Shown here: piece after piece, positions 8,222-50,119 of the stretch
Position numbering within the stretch: the stretch's first letter is position 1
Layout: every line of letters begins with the position of its first letter
DNA from: Cricetibacter osteomyelitidis
GTDB lineage: Bacteria; Pseudomonadota; Gammaproteobacteria; Enterobacterales; Pasteurellaceae
Assembly (NCBI RefSeq): GCF_004340985.1
Contig: NZ_SLYB01000005.1
Span: 1-64,000 of the forward strand
Direction: 5' to 3'
Length of the DNA stretch: 64,000 nt
Made by a program: the position numbers and the translations under genes
The notes under the pieces: generated by a model
The model's database searches: none
Told to the model about the DNA's origin: nothing
The model's input: the letters and a program-made list of their open reading frames with translations, nothing else

Positions 8222-11176
8222 TTACCATTCATATCCCACAGCCGCCGCACCGACAAGATCGCCTCTCGTATCGGAACTGCCGGAAAGTTTTATCATCACT
8301 TTACCGTTATCCGAAGCTCTCGAATAGCCCATCGCTACTGCGTTCTCGCCTCGATAGGTCGCAACTCCCACCGCCACTTGTGAGTGTCCGGCACGACGTA
8401 CTTGCGGTAAGTTACCAATCGCCGCCGCACCCGCAACGCCTGCTCGTAATTTTTTATCTTGACGATTCAGTTTTGCCTCCAAGTTATTAATACGCTTACT
8501 GTTATTATTCACTTGCTTGGAAACCTGTTTTAACTGTCCAACATTCACGGCATCCGTATCTTGCGTACCGGCGGCAACATTTTGAATCTTAGTTGGGCCT
8601 CCGGCACTATTTTTGATCACAACTCCCGTTGCATTTGAGGTGATTGTTGTTGCATTATTTCCCGAACCTATCTTAACACTGTCCGTTGCGGTAACCGTCT
8701 CAAAGGTCGGCTTAGACGAAGTCGCAATACTAATTTTATTGCCGCTTTGCGTAATATTAATGTTTTTACCCGCATCTACCGTCACAGTATTGCCCATTTT
8801 AACAGTGTTTTCACTTGAGCCCGTTACCTCGCCTTCACTTGCGCTCGTTGTGATATTCCAACCTTTATTTACCATTTCATTCGTGTCGTTAATAATTTTC
8901 TTAATATTATCGGATAAATCGTAAACCACTAAACCGTTACTATCTGTCGTCACCTTCAAACCGGAAGTTGCACCCAAAGTGAGAGTATCGGCGGTTTCCA
9001 ACGACCATTCGCCTGCCGTTCCATCCGTATTCGGCGCAGTGGCATTATTCTTCACCTTAAAGTTATCTTTCGGTGCCGTTATCGGTCCTGAGGCATTTTT
9101 AATTTGTTTAGATAAGGAATCTATTATGGCATAAAGTTGAGAACCATTAATCGCATCTGTTGAATCTTTAGAAATTAAACCTGCGGCAACGTATTGGATA
9201 CGGCGTTGCTCCTCGTCGTTTCCCACAGACACGACGGAAGAGGGTTTACTTCCTGCAAAACCGCCGTACGTAACCTCATTTATTTCTGCTGAATTAACCA
9301 TAGTCACCCCTGCTGTAGCATTGGTTAATTGGGATTCCGTACTTGAATAGCTGCCTAAAGCAACGGATTCCTCTTCATCAGCTCTTGCTAACACTCCTAA
9401 AGCGATAGAATATTTGCCCTTAGAACGAGCTGCTCTACCAAGACTTATTGTAGCATCTGCGAGTGCACTTGAGCCCCAGCCAATTGCGATTGAGGAATCA
9501 TCTGTAGATTCTGAACTTACTCCTATAGCAACACTACCGTTGCCAGTGGATTTAGAATTATAACCGGCTGCAATTGCACTATAGTTTGCAGCATTTGCTG
9601 AAGATCCTAAGGCAATTGAATTCTCACCTGAGGCATTAGACTGACTTCCTAATGCGGCGGCACTATCTTTTTCCGCTTTAGCCTGCTCTCCAAGTGCTAT
9701 CGTTTGATTGCCTGACGCTTGAGAATATTGACCTATTGCAATTGCCTCTAATCCATCTGAAAGGCTATAATGTCCCATTGCAATCCCGTAGTTAGAATTT
9801 GCCTGAGCCTTACTTCCTACCGTCACAGAACCTTCTCCATAAGCCTTAGAATTATCGCCAATTGCCGTACTATAATTAGCCGACGCATTAGCAAAAATAC
9901 CAAGTGCTGCAGAGTATGTTCCTGCTGCTTTAGTTTCAGCGCCAATTGCCATTGAACCATTTCCTGTAGCATTAGCGTAAGCACCAAGTGCTGAAGATTG
10001 CCATCCTTCTGCTTTAGTTACACCACCAATTGCTGTTGAGAACTCCTCCGTAGCATTAGCTCCACCACCTAAAGCTACGGCATTTGTTTCGGTTGCCTTA
10101 GCAAATGATCCCAATGCAATAGCATCAGAATATGTTGAAGTCGCATTACTACCAAGAGATATTGCCCCCGCTCCTGATGAATTAGCGGCATAACCGATAC
10201 TAACGGATTGACTGCCGCTTGCTTGGGAATAAATACCTTGTGAAATAGTTGCAAAACTTGTTGCATTGGATAAATAACCTAAAGCAAGGGCGTGATGAGC
10301 GCTTGCCTTTGCATCTTGACCAATGGCAATTGCATAGATGTCGGAAGCATTTGCAAAGTCACCCAGCGCAATTGAATAAGTAGCGGAAGCTCTCGCGGCA
10401 TTACCCGTTGCTATAGCGTGATATCCGGCAGCATTTGCACCATAGCCGTTGGCAATTGAGGCTTCTCCAGAAGCATTTGCGACAAAGCCGGTGGCAACCG
10501 AGGCTTCTCCGGATGCCTGTGCGCCGTCTCCTAATGCAAGGCTTGCCAAGCCACTTGCATTGGAATTAGAACCCAACGCAGTTGCCATATTGCCCGTTGC
10601 TTTAGTGCCGAACCCCATAGCAATTGCACCGTAATCACTGGTTTTAGCGTCATAACCGATAGCAATTGCTGCATTGCCACGACCTGTAGTAGTGCCATTT
10701 GCTTGTGCTTCCGCTAAGGATTTGGGATCATAAGAATTAGTCGCTCCTTGCCCAATTGCAATGGACCACTGAGTGTTGGCTGTGGCATCCGATCCGATTG
10801 CCACACCGCTAAAATCTGCCGCTTTAACATTTTTACCGATGGCTACTGAATAAGAGCCCGTTACTGTGGCATTATTGCCAATAGCAACAACATCTTGTGT
10901 ATAATCTGCTGTACTTGGTTTTGCGGTGCTGCCAATGAGAATATTGTTTTTTGTATCATCTTCCGCCGATACCGTTGCTCCGGTAATTTTAGTATTTACA
11001 ATCGTTGTTGCTAAAGCAGCCGGTGGAGTAAATAATGCTACCGTAATCGCAGAAAGTGCGGTTAATTTCATCGTAGTTTTATTTGTGGAAGATAGGTTAT
11101 TTTTGGAAGTCGCTAATTCTGAAGCGACTACAGATAGACCAAGTCGATTATGTTTAACTTTAAAAATTTTATTCAT
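8222..11176 (-). CDS. Trimeric autotransporter adhesin (YadA/Hia type)
   Basis: The 984-residue protein should form a trimeric surface fibre that binds host cells or matrix. It starts with an extended signal peptide (ESPR): MNKIFKVKHNRLGL, a polar linker, then a hydrophobic core ending in AALA near residue 56. Residues about 80-650 are a very long run of 14-residue YadA-head repeats (pattern SxAIGxxAxAxG). Two neck motifs are visible (DAINGSQLY near 680 and DAVNVGQLK near 870). A short coiled-coil stalk and a YadA anchor of about 78 residues close the protein, ending in VGAAAVGYEW with a C-terminal aromatic residue. The head repeats make this a likely site for length variation between strains. 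The gene stands alone, with a terminator downstream. Confidence 0.95.
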   Translation of the reverse strand: MNKIFKVKHNRLGLSVVASELATSKNNLSSTNKTTMKLTALSAITVALFTPPAALATTIVNTKITGATVSAEDDTKNNILIGSTAKPSTADYTQDVVAIGNNATVTGSYSVAIGKNVKAADFSGVAIGSDATANTQWSIAIGQGATNSYDPKSLAEAQANGTTTGRGNAAIAIGYDAKTSDYGAIAMGFGTKATGNMATALGSNSNASGLASLALGDGAQASGEASVATGFVANASGEASIANGYGANAAGYHAIATGNAARASATYSIALGDFANASDIYAIAIGQDAKASAHHALALGYLSNATSFATISQGIYSQASGSQSVSIGYAANSSGAGAISLGSNATSTYSDAIALGSFAKATETNAVALGGGANATEEFSTAIGGVTKAEGWQSSALGAYANATGNGSMAIGAETKAAGTYSAALGIFANASANYSTAIGDNSKAYGEGSVTVGSKAQANSNYGIAMGHYSLSDGLEAIAIGQYSQASGNQTIALGEQAKAEKDSAAALGSQSNASGENSIALGSSANAANYSAIAAGYNSKSTGNGSVAIGVSSESTDDSSIAIGWGSSALADATISLGRAARSKGKYSIALGVLARADEEESVALGSYSSTESQLTNATAGVTMVNSAEINEVTYGGFAGSKPSSVVSVGNDEEQRRIQYVAAGLISKDSTDAINGSQLYAIIDSLSKQIKNASGPITAPKDNFKVKNNATAPNTDGTAGEWSLETADTLTLGATSGLKVTTDSNGLVVYDLSDNIKKIINDTNEMVNKGWNITTSASEGEVTGSSENTVKMGNTVTVDAGKNINITQSGNKISIATSSKPTFETVTATDSVKIGSGNNATTITSNATGVVIKNSAGGPTKIQNVAAGTQDTDAVNVGQLKQVSKQVNNNSKRINNLEAKLNRQDKKLRAGVAGAAAIGNLPQVRRAGHSQVAVGVATYRGENAVAMGYSRASDNGKVMIKLSGSSDTRGDLVGAAAVGYEW

Positions 11177-13366: not shown

Positions 13367-14296
13367 TTATATTTTATTTAACTTTAATAGAGTTTCCAAA
13401 CCATATTTTTTTATCAATTTACTTTCAAATTCAGGCTCAATATAAAAAGTAAATGCTAGTTCCCCTTGCAATTTTTTAGCTTCATCATCATTAATCTTTC
13501 CCAGTGAATAATGATGAACTTTTGATGATAGTACTCTTTTCTTATTTCTTCCTATCGATAATTTATTATCATTAGTTAGCCTTATTCCTGTAACATGTCT
13601 ATTATTAGCTTTAGATGAAAAAATAGTTTTTTTATTATTTATAATAATTTTTCCTGAAAATTCCTCTAATAAAATTTTTTTTATCTCATTAGGAATATCA
13701 AATAATATATTTCTCACATTGGTTGTGAATGTTATATCATCTGCATATCTTGTATAAGTCACATTAATATTATTACAATAATCATTAATTTTTTTATCAA
13801 AAGAATACATTATAAAGTTAGATATTAATGGAGAACTAGGAGCACCTATACTTAATGATAAATATTCTTTATATCTACTAGGCTTCCAAAATAATAATCT
13901 TGATATAATCTCCCTATCTTCAACACTATAACTGATGTTATTTTTATCTAATTGGTCAAAGAAAATCTCTGGAGTTATTGAAGGGAAAAAATTTTTAAAA
14001 TCCATTTTCAATAAATATTGAGATTTTAAATGTTTTTGTGCATTATCTTTGATACTTACTTCTTTTTTATAAGAAAATACAGCCTCATGCACTGGTAGAA
14101 TGTTCGATAAAATCCCATTCAGTGCTCTCTGGATAAATTTTAATTCTTTTGATGGATGAGCTATAGTTCTTTTTTTCTTAGAGTTTCGTTTAGGTATTTG
14201 ATAAACCTTATACCTATATGGTGAAGTTGATGCAAATTTTTTTAGTTCCTGCATATCTAATAGTAGTGTATCCATAAGAATATCTAAGATTGTCAT
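13367..14296 (-). CDS. Retron reverse transcriptase
   Basis: The 309-residue protein is a compact retron RT that makes msDNA from its cognate RNA. Visible motifs: the retron-specific NAxxH (NAQKH, residues 85-89), motif A MDFKNFFPSI (98-107) with the first catalytic Asp, GAPSSPLISN (151-160), the catalytic YADD (184-187), and the retron VTG motif (235-237), which contacts the msr. Length equals that of the RT in the Eco1 (Ec86) group. The ATG overlaps the stop of the effector gene by four bases (ATGA), so the two are translationally coupled. Codons are strongly AT-rich compared with purL next door, a sign of transfer. All key residues are present, so the enzyme should be active. Confidence 0.95.
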   Translation of the reverse strand: MTILDILMDTLLLDMQELKKFASTSPYRYKVYQIPKRNSKKKRTIAHPSKELKFIQRALNGILSNILPVHEAVFSYKKEVSIKDNAQKHLKSQYLLKMDFKNFFPSITPEIFFDQLDKNNISYSVEDREIISRLLFWKPSRYKEYLSLSIGAPSSPLISNFIMYSFDKKINDYCNNINVTYTRYADDITFTTNVRNILFDIPNEIKKILLEEFSGKIIINNKKTIFSSKANNRHVTGIRLTNDNKLSIGRNKKRVLSSKVHHYSLGKINDDEAKKLQGELAFTFYIEPEFESKLIKKYGLETLLKLNKI

Positions 14297-15252
14297 GATC
14301 TATGTTCCTTCATAATATATTTAAGTGCGGACTTTCTTTTTCTAGCTATATCATCATTAGATTGCATATATGATTCTCTTAATTTCATCTTATGTTTGCT
14401 CTCATCAAATTTAGTTCCTTCATTATTTTTACCAAATTTAACAAAACATTTATCTTTATAATTTGAACTAGGATAGTAAAATTTATATGAACTATAGTCA
14501 TATACATTAATATATTCTAACTTATCTAACAAATATAAAAACCTCTTTACTTCCGTTTGTGTTAAATCAATATATAAAGCAGCTAAACTGAATTCTATTT
14601 CTGTCAGTATTATAGGATAAGACAATCTTACTATTTCACAAATCAAAAAAATTATATGCGTTATATTATTTGAATCAAACTTCTGTGTTTTATCAAGTTT
14701 AGATAAAATTTCTTTAGTACATGAGATTATATCGTCTACATGAGACTGATCAAAATCAATCCCTTTTTTGGGGAAAGGATAGCTTAATACTAACTTATCA
14801 TTCTTTCTTTTTATATGAGTCAATGGACCTAAATAAATGAAAGAATCTTTACTTTCTGTATTAGGCGTAATAATTAATAGTTTATTATAAAAGTCAGATT
14901 TGTTTGAAAATAACCCTAATTCAACCAGAGAACCAGGACTTTCTAAAAAAATTATTATTAACGCTGATATATGAGCAATATCAGTTTCGAAAGTTAATAA
15001 ATCATTATATAAACCATCTTGTAAGTAATCCTTAAATGATTCTGCCATAATTAATAATGATTCTAATTCAGGATTACTAGAGGCAGCTCTCTCAAAAAAA
15101 TATTCTCTGAAACTATTTGGAGGCGGATTTTTTATATCGACATACCCTCCACAAACAAATATTTTTTGCTCACTCAGTTGGACTATAAATTGTTTAAGCT
15201 CATAAGAACCATACAGATCTATTAGTATATCTTCATACTTATTTTTATTCAT
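14293..15252 (-). CDS. Retron effector: NDT-like N-glycosidase with C-terminal winged helix
   Basis: The 319-residue protein lies between the msr-msd RNA and the RT, the order found in retrons Eco1 and Sen2 (type II-A). Residues about 28-180 look like a nucleoside-deoxyribosyltransferase/TIR-like fold: the strand IFVCGG (31-36) and the motif ESPGSLVELG (104-113), in which the first Glu and the later Glu are the expected catalytic and ribose-binding residues. Residues about 185-270 form a helix-turn-helix-like domain (LTQTEVKRFLYLLDKLEYI). In Eco1 and Sen2 the homologous protein is the toxin, held inactive by RT-msDNA; for Eco1, NAD+ hydrolysis has been reported. Assigning that activity here is inference. 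Confidence 0.85.
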   Translation of the reverse strand: MNKNKYEDILIDLYGSYELKQFIVQLSEQKIFVCGGYVDIKNPPPNSFREYFFERAASSNPELESLLIMAESFKDYLQDGLYNDLLTFETDIAHISALIIIFLESPGSLVELGLFSNKSDFYNKLLIITPNTESKDSFIYLGPLTHIKRKNDKLVLSYPFPKKGIDFDQSHVDDIISCTKEILSKLDKTQKFDSNNITHIIFLICEIVRLSYPIILTEIEFSLAALYIDLTQTEVKRFLYLLDKLEYINVYDYSSYKFYYPSSNYKDKCFVKFGKNNEGTKFDESKHKMKLRESYMQSNDDIARKRKSALKYIMKEHRS

Positions 15253-15279
15253 ATATTAAAATCTTACAATTCATAAAAA

Positions 15280-15306
15280 AGGCAATCCACATAAAGTAGA
15301 CTGCCT
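15280..15306 (-). terminator. Attenuating hairpin between msr-msd and effector
   Basis: Read leftward, AGGCAGTCTA and TGGATTGCCT form a 10-bp stem (two G-U pairs) with a 7-nt loop, followed by six T residues. It lies 28 bases before the effector ATG. It would end most transcripts after the RNA, giving excess msr-msd over effector mRNA. Confidence 0.7.
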
Positions 15307-15314
15307 TCTGAAGA

Positions 15315-15465
15315 TACTCTTTACTAAAGGCCGCGTTAGAAAATTTTCTATCGCTCCGAATCCAGGATCGATAGAAAATTTTCTAACGCATCCTAAATCT
15401 AATCAATAAATTTGAGTCTAGCTAAACACCTGACTGAGCAATTTGCTTACAAACGCTAAAGAGTA
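15315..15465 (-). ncRNA. Retron msr-msd RNA
   Basis: The RNA is read leftward. Repeat a1 (15465-15457, TACTCTTTA) pairs perfectly with a2 (15323-15315, TAAAGAGTA). The base right after a1 is G (complement of 15456), in the context TTTAGC, exactly where Eco1 places its branching guanosine (CTTAGC). The msr (about 15456-15395) can form small stem-loops. The msd region holds a perfect 21-bp stem (15389-15369 with 15353-15333), one mismatch, three further pairs and a 7-nt loop. The expected msDNA is about 65-75 nt, with one long hairpin. Exact ends need mapping. Confidence 0.88.
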
Positions 15466-15471
15466 GTTGAG

Positions 15472-15500
15472 ATTATACTATAAAAATTTATTTTTGATAA
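15472..15500 (-). promoter_or_regulatory. Retron promoter
   Basis: On the - strand, TTATCA (15500-15495) and TATAAT (15477-15472) are separated by 17 bases. The start would fall near 15465, the first base of a1, which fits retron transcripts that begin at the msr. Confidence 0.75.
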
Positions 15501-15763: not shown

Positions 15764-16984
15764 CTACTTAGATAATTCCCCAATTAAAAAATCAACCCAT
15801 TTTTTAGAATATAAGTAAGAATCATATCCTTCAATATAAGCTGAGTATTCGCCTTTAAACTTAGTATCAATAGAGTTCGGTCTAGCATTATATTTTTTCC
15901 AACACTCTGTATGTTTATGAATGTTAAATGTAGGTATTTTTTCTTTTATAAGCTCTACAACTCTAGACGGCTTAAATTTATAAGGAAATTCAACTTGCTT
16001 TAGAAAACTTATAGCATGTTCATAGTTTTTTTTCTGTTCATCAGATAAGTAATCTACATGAATGAATTCAATAGATAAATCAGAAGAATTAATGTTATTT
16101 GATATTTTAGGTATTAAATACACGGATATTCTATAATTCTGACTATTTATAATATCTTCATTTAAACTTCCCCGATAGCTATCCATAAATTTCTTAATAT
16201 CTTGATAGGCTTGAGTTTGGAATTCCTTTCTTGCCTTAATTTGAGCTTGTGATGAGATATTATTTAATTGCATTGCGATAGCTAGATTTGTTCCTAATGC
16301 ATATTTCTCTCCAAATTCTCTAACTAGCAATAGCTCAAAATTATTCAATGCAGCTTGACATTCACCTGCTACCATTATATCTATTGCAGGTAATCCCCTA
16401 TGTTCAATTTTATTTCTTAGCTTTATTAAAAAATCTAAATTGCTCTTTTCTGGTTTATTGGAATTTATCCAATATTTATCTAAGCAAGTTGATAATTCCC
16501 AAGCTTTTTCCTGTCCGTCAATTATCTTAAAATCCCCATTTTTACCTTTATAGTAGTAAACTTCATTTCTTCTTTCAAAAATAGCATGAAATAAAGATGT
16601 ATAAGCAATTATTATATTAACTATAAAGCCGTAAGTTTTAAATTCTGTAAAAGGATTGTTATATATTGAAACAGCAAGTAGTGCAAATTCTCTTGCTTTG
16701 TTTAGTAATTTACCATATTCCACTCTATTTATATCGAAACTATTCTTTTGAGAGGAAATACTTCTGAATTGCTCTTTGCTTATTGTTTTCAAAGTTTTAA
16801 CAATATATTCAAAATTGCTTTTTTCTATATATTGATACCACTTTTTAGATAAATATGTTTTACAGGTACTCTCACTTAAACCTGAATAATATGATAATTC
16901 CTTTATGTTGAAAGTATCATCTAAGTTTTCTCTCTCCACTAAGAAATCATAAGCTTTATCTATATGAATATATCTATTTTCCAT
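15764..16984 (-). CDS. DUF3644-like protein with HEPN-type R-x4-H motif
   Basis: The 406-residue protein has an N-terminal region (residues 1-95) with a possible helix-turn-helix (IKELSYYSGLSESTCKTYLS, about 27-46). A DUF3644-like helical domain (about 95-215) contains KAREFALLAVSIYNNPFTEF and the motif LRNKIEHR. In that motif Arg190 and His195 make R-x4-H, the signature of HEPN ribonucleases. The C-terminal half (about 230-406) is of unknown type. HEPN proteins are common in phage defence, where they cut RNA. Activity and any partnership with the retron are inferences from motif and location. The gene is AT-rich like the retron and separated from it by about 260 bases with the retron's own promoter, so it is probably a distinct transcription unit. 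Confidence 0.65.
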   Translation of the reverse strand: MENRYIHIDKAYDFLVERENLDDTFNIKELSYYSGLSESTCKTYLSKKWYQYIEKSNFEYIVKTLKTISKEQFRSISSQKNSFDINRVEYGKLLNKAREFALLAVSIYNNPFTEFKTYGFIVNIIIAYTSLFHAIFERRNEVYYYKGKNGDFKIIDGQEKAWELSTCLDKYWINSNKPEKSNLDFLIKLRNKIEHRGLPAIDIMVAGECQAALNNFELLLVREFGEKYALGTNLAIAMQLNNISSQAQIKARKEFQTQAYQDIKKFMDSYRGSLNEDIINSQNYRISVYLIPKISNNINSSDLSIEFIHVDYLSDEQKKNYEHAISFLKQVEFPYKFKPSRVVELIKEKIPTFNIHKHTECWKKYNARPNSIDTKFKGEYSAYIEGYDSYLYSKKWVDFLIGELSK

Positions 16985-49808: not shown

Positions 49809-49950
49809 TGCCAAAAGAAAATATGGTTTCATTTAAAGAAAATACTTTGTTGATTATTAGGTTACTTGGTTAATTTATTTTTTCGTTAATAAAAATTAAT
49901 CACAAAATCCGCTTTCCCATTTATTAATTTTCCGCTACAATCCTATCCAT

Positions 49951-50040
49951 TAGTCGGGGTGCTGTTTTTAGAAAAAATAGAAAAGCAGCTGAGATAATAC
50001 CCGTGAACCTGAAACAGTTAGCACTGACGTAGGAAACTAG
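49951..50040 (+). promoter_or_regulatory. TPP riboswitch (thi box)
   Basis: The element shows the conserved parts in order: CGGGGTGCTG, a variable A-rich arm, CAGCTGAGATAATACCCG, TGAACCTGA, and CACTGACGTAGGAAACTAG. Outer TAG/CTA bases form P1. It lies about 80 bases before thiZ. Thiamine pyrophosphate binding should reduce expression of the six genes downstream. The region 50041-50119 is the expression platform; I see no strong terminator in it, so translation control is possible. Confidence 0.95.
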
Positions 50041-50119
50041 ATTATGCACATAAAACACCTTTCTTTTATTTATTTCTTAAAAACTTCTCTAAAAAACACC
50101 GCACTTTTAGGTTAATCAA

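Follow-up and report, generated by a model that had tools for sequence, protein, structure and literature searches.

The minus strand of the window, by which we mean the whole 64,000-nucleotide stretch of DNA analysed here, carries at 15465-15315 a sequence that a preliminary description had read as the msr-msd of a retron. The locus raises the question of what kind of retron this would be and what, in the msDNA that it specifies, could be read by the partners of the system. The identity and the limits of the element are confirmed by its anatomy, its folding, and the conservation of a1, a2 and the G that adjoins a1, and we conclude that 15465-15315 is very probably the msr-msd RNA of a type II-A (St85/Sen2-family) retron. 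As judged from its sequence, the retron looks like a further member of an already known family, with an apparently complete set of parts, which are the following.

15472-15500, minus strand: promoter-like site, TTATCA (15500-15495), a 17-nt spacer and TATAAT (15477-15472), with 10/12 consensus matches
15457-15465, minus strand: a1 arm, TACTCTTTA, from the sequence, its pairing with a2 and covariation
15456, minus strand: predicted branch guanosine, the G that comes first after a1 in a TTTA/GCG context, conserved in relatives
15415-15435, minus strand: msr stem-loop, AGTC/GACT, an A.A mismatch, three further pairs and a 5-nt loop, from the fold and covariation
15369-15389, minus strand: msd 5' arm, 21 nt, containing TAGAAAATTTTCTA within the 20-nt near-palindrome CGTTAGAAAATTTTCTATCG, from pairing and symmetry scoring
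15366-15369, minus strand: GATC at the stem tip, facing GAGC (15356-15353), a candidate methylation tripwire, from the sequence
15333-15353, minus strand: msd 3' arm, complementary to the 5' arm at every position, from pairing and covariation
15324, minus strand: predicted first template base, the G preceding a2, a G in 52 ncRNAs, where the finder required it
15315-15323, minus strand: a2 arm, TAAAGAGTA, from the sequence, its pairing with a1 and covariation
15275-15307, minus strand: intrinsic-terminator-like hairpin and T run past a2 (15314-15268 folds with -20.3 kcal/mol, z -6.15)
14293-15252, minus strand: effector of 319 aa, assigned by NF038232, whose structural model shows an NDT-like domain (residues 27-187, approximately) followed by a part resembling a winged helix (residues 197-261, approximately)
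13367-14296, minus strand: retron reverse transcriptase (RT) of 309 aa with YADD, NAQKH and VTG motifs, from NF038233

The exact complementarity claimed for a1 and a2 is borne out by 9/9 Watson-Crick pairs (15465-15457 against 15323-15315, minus strand), and the base directly after a1 is indeed a G, G15456, in the context TTTAGC. The arms of the msd, 15389-15369 and 15353-15333, pair at 21 of 21 positions, as described. A U-G wobble at the base of the stem extends the run to 22, and above the 21 pairs the fold places one mismatch and then three pairs closing a 7-nt loop. Folding of 15475-15300 yields -56.3 kcal/mol (z -4.95), and none of 200 shuffles was equally stable. The self-complementary core reported for each arm is present, but its length is 14 nt (TAGAAAATTTTCTA) rather than 12. 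A search of the 64 kb that tolerated at most one mismatch hit only the two arms, once each, against an expectation of 0.04. Between 11000 and 18000, the only inverted repeats of at least 14 nt with arms no more than 120 nt apart are the msd and a weaker one at 13987-14037. Upstream, the -10 hexamer of the promoter-like site ends 6 nt ahead of a1, and a start would be expected near a1; the site is weak on its own, because the region holds 33 such sites versus 26.4 expected in shuffles. Downstream, the terminator-like hairpin at 15275-15307, not listed by the consensus scan of the region, falls inside a match to the Rfam family RF02058 (15396-15262).

The search against retron ncRNA models proposed in the preliminary description gave an msr match just short of the threshold: RF00170 matches 15464-15398 with 51.7 bits (E 1.7e-7 in 4 kb), where the gathering score is 52, a shortfall of 0.3. 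RF02058 (STnc400) scores 68.6 bits, with a gathering score of 80. Neither retron family is thus found in the window at gathering thresholds, and both were given by a permissive scan, whose microRNA and snoRNA rows we took as chance. Among the relatives, L013, L015 and L021 pass the gathering score of RF00170, and in these three loci as well as in the window the two families jointly cover the ncRNA. In all four, the STnc400 "sRNA" directly abuts the RF00170 msr (15262-15464 in the window), and STnc400 would seem to be one half of the II-A retron RNA, comprising msd and terminator, that was made a family of its own.

The proteins encoded downstream define the class. The effector scores 253.8 bits against NF038232 (cut-off 100) and 274.6 bits against the PADLOC model NDT_II-A; it matches no Pfam family at E 0.001, and one of 25 effector homologues has a weak winged-helix match (HTH_12, E 0.0021). 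Its structural model (pLDDT 90.7) superimposes on the Eco1 effector, 8qbl_E, with a Z of 14.8 and an rmsd of 6.3 over 269 aligned residues. Counted along an alignment with the Eco1 effector, E106 of Eco1, the residue mutated according to the "inactive effector" title of 8qbl, corresponds to E111, and this glutamate does not vary in either of two alignments, of 6 and 25 sequences. From this conserved residue and from the relatives of the protein, an NAD+-hydrolysing anti-phage activity can be predicted for the effector. The RT scores 345.8 bits against NF038233 (cut-off 235) and 90.1 bits against Pfam RVT_1, and its sequence contains all three of the YADD, NAXXH and VTG motifs described for retron RTs in the available part of PMC12405507. 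PADLOC scores it nearly alike as RT_I-A (400.2) and RT_II-A (395). Retrons of type I-A carry Septu-type effectors instead of NDT, and a type I-A retron (Ec78/Ec83) was rejected here on its effector, which is NDT_II-A, with no Septu match among those listed for the four neighbouring proteins scanned. The replacement of NDT by Septu is described for II-A1 and I-A in the accessible text of PMC12548924. The gene order is ncRNA, NDT-type winged-helix effector and RT. An NF038233 RT, an NF038232/NDT_II-A effector and an Eco1-like fold therefore identify a type II-A, St85-family retron.

Homologous loci were gathered with the effector as bait. We scanned 63, including the window, and kept 52 distinct ncRNAs after dropping duplicates (L056, L059, L060) and loci without a recognisable ncRNA (L052, L054, L055, L066-L070); L009 and L046-L048, repeats or near-repeats of L025, L008 and L010, were set aside. 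Conservation of a1 and a2, together with a G after a1, was found throughout the 52 ncRNAs: the first eight pairs contain no mismatch in 34, one in 17 and two in a single case. The tallies of G after a1 and before a2 are circular, because the finder demanded a G at both places. When a1 and a2 were chosen by complementarity alone, without any requirement for G and in a 300-nt zone still centred on the place given by the finder, the same a1 was recovered in 35/52 loci, another place in 14 and none in 3. In all 35 loci where the place coincides, the base after a1 is G, which supports G15456 as the branch point. The contexts are TTAC/GCG in 31 loci, TTTA/GCG in the window and 13 others, and other variants in 7. 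The TTAC/GCG lineages have one more C in a1 and, to pair with it, one more G where a2 begins, so that the same G stays adjoining a1. The pairing is only 9 bp long at the window locus, and L004 pairs 7 before a mismatch. The branch context of the window is TAGC, and Eco1 reads TTAGC. In the available text of PMC6868368, TAGC is the commonest retron branch context and ACGC that of Retron-Vch2.

Covariation supports the fold as a whole. Of 13 aligned ncRNAs, 8 entered the pair count; L017 and L058, which are out of register in the stem, were left out beforehand, and the more divergent L018, L024 and L064 were also omitted before the run. Among these eight closer ncRNAs, 96.9% of cells are paired and 10 pairs have changed on both sides (22 such cells), values reached by 0/500 shuffles; sliding the partner by 1-3 columns lowers pairing to 35.7-43.6% of cells. 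The nearest relative found, L004, whose effector is 59-60% identical, lacks one base in each arm of the msd, so that its stem is still perfect. The notion that a long perfect stem is special to this locus did not survive comparison: contiguous runs of at least 21 pairs occur in 9/38 other loci folded (L013, L014, L015, L021, L024, L029, L031, L036, L039), and the accessible description of St85 msDNA (PMC4569332) gives a predicted stem without mismatched pairs and a 4-nt loop. Stems do vary in the family. By eye, the E. coli/Vibrio-type relatives L008, L010, L020, L023, L025, L026 and L045 share an msd stem from which a single C bulges out, AG(C)ACTT versus AAGTCT. The msd of L033 (Hahella) is far shorter, with 103 nt from branch G to a2 and a predicted hairpin of only 8 pairs, as if the palindrome of one arm had been turned into the whole stem.

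Some observations concern the surroundings of the retron and the wider distribution of such elements. The gene content of the window suggests a host within the Pasteurellaceae. Beside it lies a gene for a DUF3644 protein (15764-16984, minus strand; Pfam 172 bits, PADLOC candidate PDC-S19 349 bits), and both form a low-G+C stretch (about 23-30%) adjoining a 1333-aa ORF that we take for purL. In L004 (genome G079, about 950-1160), the related retron adjoins a broken copy of the purL 3' end, while the long purL frame of that genome is elsewhere (C1:3767); this retron has perhaps moved together with its purL flank. Its RT is frameshifted, and its effector frame and ncRNA look intact. The genome of the window encodes a second retron-type RT of 329 aa (L002, contig C32, 23061-26699; PADLOC RT_VI 309 bits), whose gene directly follows that for a small HTH protein (HTH_VI 114 bits); the two probably make up a type VI retron. 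An St85-type effector, RT and ncRNA lie near the start of the record of a filamentous Pseudomonas phage (L011, OR801192). Elsewhere in the window we noted a TPP riboswitch (49945-50052, plus strand, 60.7 bits) and a 984-aa ORF (8222-11176, minus strand) with many AIG-type repeats, reminiscent of a YadA-like trimeric autotransporter.

The arm of the msd has a property of its own, namely a 14-nt perfect palindrome inside a 20-nt near-palindrome in which 9/10 positions are symmetric (net score 8). For each 5' arm, the best internal inverted repeat was scored against shuffled versions of that arm, which gave p 0.003 for the window, or p 0.006 against GC-matched flanking DNA. Across the family, 17/52 arms reach p <=0.05 with shuffles and 14/52 with flanking DNA, and no significant symmetry is seen in the remaining 35/52 and 38/52, respectively; in the E. 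coli/Vibrio ACGC group, L024, L028-L031 and L040 it is not significant against shuffles. Where symmetry occurs, the half-sites differ by lineage: CCGCAGA/TCTGCGG in a group made up mostly of Pseudomonas, GCGGGAA/TTCCCGC in L053, TGAAAGA/TCTTTCA in L051 and CGTGAA/TTCACG in L064 (p 0.074). L035 alters both half-sites of the Pseudomonas pattern in concert (CCGCAGC/GCTGCGG versus CCGCAGA/TCTGCGG). Among the 22 arms with p <=0.11, 17 share a span of 19-22 nt and a dyad 9.5-11.5 bp above the stem base, and L005-L007, L022 and L051 depart from this arrangement. Grouping loci by effector identity, the shuffle control gives 6/20 significant clusters at 50% (binomial 3e-4), 3/13 at 45% (0.025) and 2/9 at 40% (0.071), and the flanking-DNA control 5/20, 2/13 (0.14) and 2/9 (0.071). 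Of the earlier suggestion that the palindrome presents a site for a protein, the symmetry stands, recurring with other half-sites in other clades; the contact itself we infer. The palindrome of the arm may well be a site for a protein, and by analogy the lower stem could be the site for the winged helix of the effector: in a type IX retron, as described in the accessible text of PMC13405049, the stem-loop of the msDNA is contacted by a winged-helix protein, which a phage HTH protein mimics to trigger the system.

The GATC at the tip of the stem, with a mismatch that is shared in the family, is an addition to the earlier reading. Facing GAGC, it produces an A.G mismatch in the RNA and a T.C mismatch in the msDNA. 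GATC is present in the msd of 25/52 ncRNAs versus 14.9 expected from mononucleotide shuffles. It lies opposite GAGC in 16/52, the window included (for L013, as for L019, the letters opposite GATC were deduced from one paired base), and L018 has the same pair with the arms swapped. Another single mismatch within GATC is found in L011, L019 and L064, a perfect GATC duplex in L010, L021 and L036 (3/52), and a GATC outside a clear stem in L037, L038 and L063. The host of the window has Dam (311 bits). Among the 31 of 52 hosts examined, the msd contains GATC in 15/18 Dam-positive hosts versus 3/13 without Dam (Fisher 0.0012, uncorrected for phylogeny in sets that are clade-structured, 3 of the 13 having weaker, below-cut-off matches). 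Fourteen of the 15 GATC-bearing msds of Dam-positive hosts are mismatched. Two of the perfect duplexes, that of L021, whose host is Dam-positive, and that of the E. coli retron L010, are exceptions that count against a strict mismatch rule. For the II-A retrons Asa1 and Squ1, whose ncRNAs both carry GATC, the trigger is a phage adenine methyltransferase acting at GATC, with phage assays in E. coli and one test in a native Serratia host (PMC12548924, in the parts available); the sections of that paper on Asa1 and Squ1 were not found to discuss host Dam or a GATC mismatch. Half-pairing of the GATC would be one way for the system to escape being triggered by the host's own Dam. More widely, neither the arm symmetry nor the GATC mismatch was found described in the passages of running text consulted from open-licence PMC papers.

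Reasoning from the family, the ncRNA would be made from its own promoter and end at the terminator, a1 would pair with a2, and the RT would prime from the 2'-OH of G15456 and copy from G15324 upwards, giving an msDNA with a 5' C, perhaps 75-90 nt long, with a perfect hairpin. RT and msDNA would together keep the NDT effector inactive. To these steps we add the proposals that the winged-helix domain of the effector reads the two-fold symmetric lower stem and that the half-paired GATC at the tip acts as a tripwire protected from host Dam. The effector would then be freed by a phage protein, either a GATC adenine methyltransferase or one that binds or destroys the msDNA, and would hydrolyse NAD+ and halt growth. 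We thus put forward, as a speculative reading that is rather unlikely to be right in full, that St85-type msDNA is a two-part sensor. Its lower 19-20 bp would be an operator for a dimer of the effector's winged helix, with a dyad roughly one turn of the helix above the base and with half-sites co-evolving with the effector, and its deliberately mismatched tip GATC would be methylatable by phage enzymes and Dam-proof. If true, this would account for the presence of an alarm based on GATC methylation in cells that have Dam. A shared GATC mismatch and a symmetric stem, in a family for which GATC methylation is the known trigger, lead to two directly testable questions: which part of the msDNA is read by the effector, and why host Dam leaves the system silent.

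The same features lend themselves to other interpretations. The palindrome could be a by-product of AT-rich sequence or of hairpin growth, with no binding partner, which we regard as possible though on balance doubtful. The arm is AT-rich, most arms in the family fail to reach p 0.05 (35/52 with shuffles, 38/52 with the flanking control) and at 40% effector identity only 2/9 clusters do so; against this, the window has p 0.003 (shuffles) and 0.006 (GC-matched flanking DNA), GC-rich clades are symmetric with other half-sites, those of L035 change in concert, and 17 of the 22 arms with p <=0.11 have almost the same span and dyad position. The two-fold symmetry of the lower stem would also suit a bait for a phage DNA-binding protein rather than for a methyltransferase, an HTH protein or an SSB displacing the effector. 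Eco8 is a type I-B retron. The precedents, according to the passages available, are phage T5 D5, which binds the msDNA of Kva2 by mimicking its winged-helix protein (PMC13405049), and the phage SSB that triggers Eco8 (PMC13158370), and they come from other retron types (IX for Kva2). Half-sites that differ among clades would be expected where every effector recognises the stem of its own retron, rather than with recognition by one phage protein, and the bait leaves the GATC unexplained; we consider it improbable, if worth keeping in mind.

Two further possibilities have little in their favour. The preliminary description had suggested that the palindrome could let the msDNA dimerise, and each arm might also fold separately. 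Among stems of at least 20 bp, the predicted dimer gain has a median of 3.35 kcal/mol with symmetric arms (n=14) versus 4.2 in the others (n=22), and 4.3 in the window; since symmetry does not raise it, the gain is a general property of hairpins. The arms alone do fold, with -5.8 and -5.6 kcal/mol, but the full hairpin reaches -27.9 kcal/mol, and both variants, very improbable on these energies, were rejected. That the window holds a decayed or inactive copy is scarcely credible: in the G079 relative the RT is frameshifted and the ncRNA and effector next to it look intact, whereas here the effector and RT frames are open across the family profiles, with scores far above the cut-offs, and the ncRNA is intact.

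The retron of the window can be compared with several known systems. Retron-Sen2 (St85) of Salmonella, STM3845/STM3846, has likewise an effector of NF038232 (STM3845_fam) and an RT of NF038233, and shares with the window an extra ORF between msr-msd and RT and a long msDNA stem predicted to be mismatch-free, Sen2 being compared by its description in the accessible parts of PMC6868368 and PMC4569332; its published loop is of 4 nt, versus a tip mismatch and a 7-nt loop in the window. Retron-Vch2 (Vc81), also compared by description, and the TTAC/GCG lineages have the family and ncRNA plan of the window, and the GATC/GAGC tip is found in many TTAC/GCG lineages too. They differ in the branch context, ACGC in Vch2 (PMC6868368, in the part available) versus TAGC in the window, and in an a1/a2 pairing that is one pair longer in the TTAC/GCG lineages. 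Unlike the window, the E. coli/Vibrio-type members of these lineages have a stem with a bulged C and arms without significant symmetry. Retron-Eco1 (Ec86) is more remote: its effector has a similar fold (8qbl_E) with about 22% identity, and its RT is much more distant from that of the window (about 125 bits versus 287.6 for the best PDB retron RT). The available text on Ec86 describes NAD+ degradation and a methylation trigger (PMC13158370, PMC12405507), the latter Dcm-like (PMC13158370). Asa1 and Squ1, compared by their description in the accessible sections of PMC12548924, are like the window of type II-A and carry GATC in their ncRNA.
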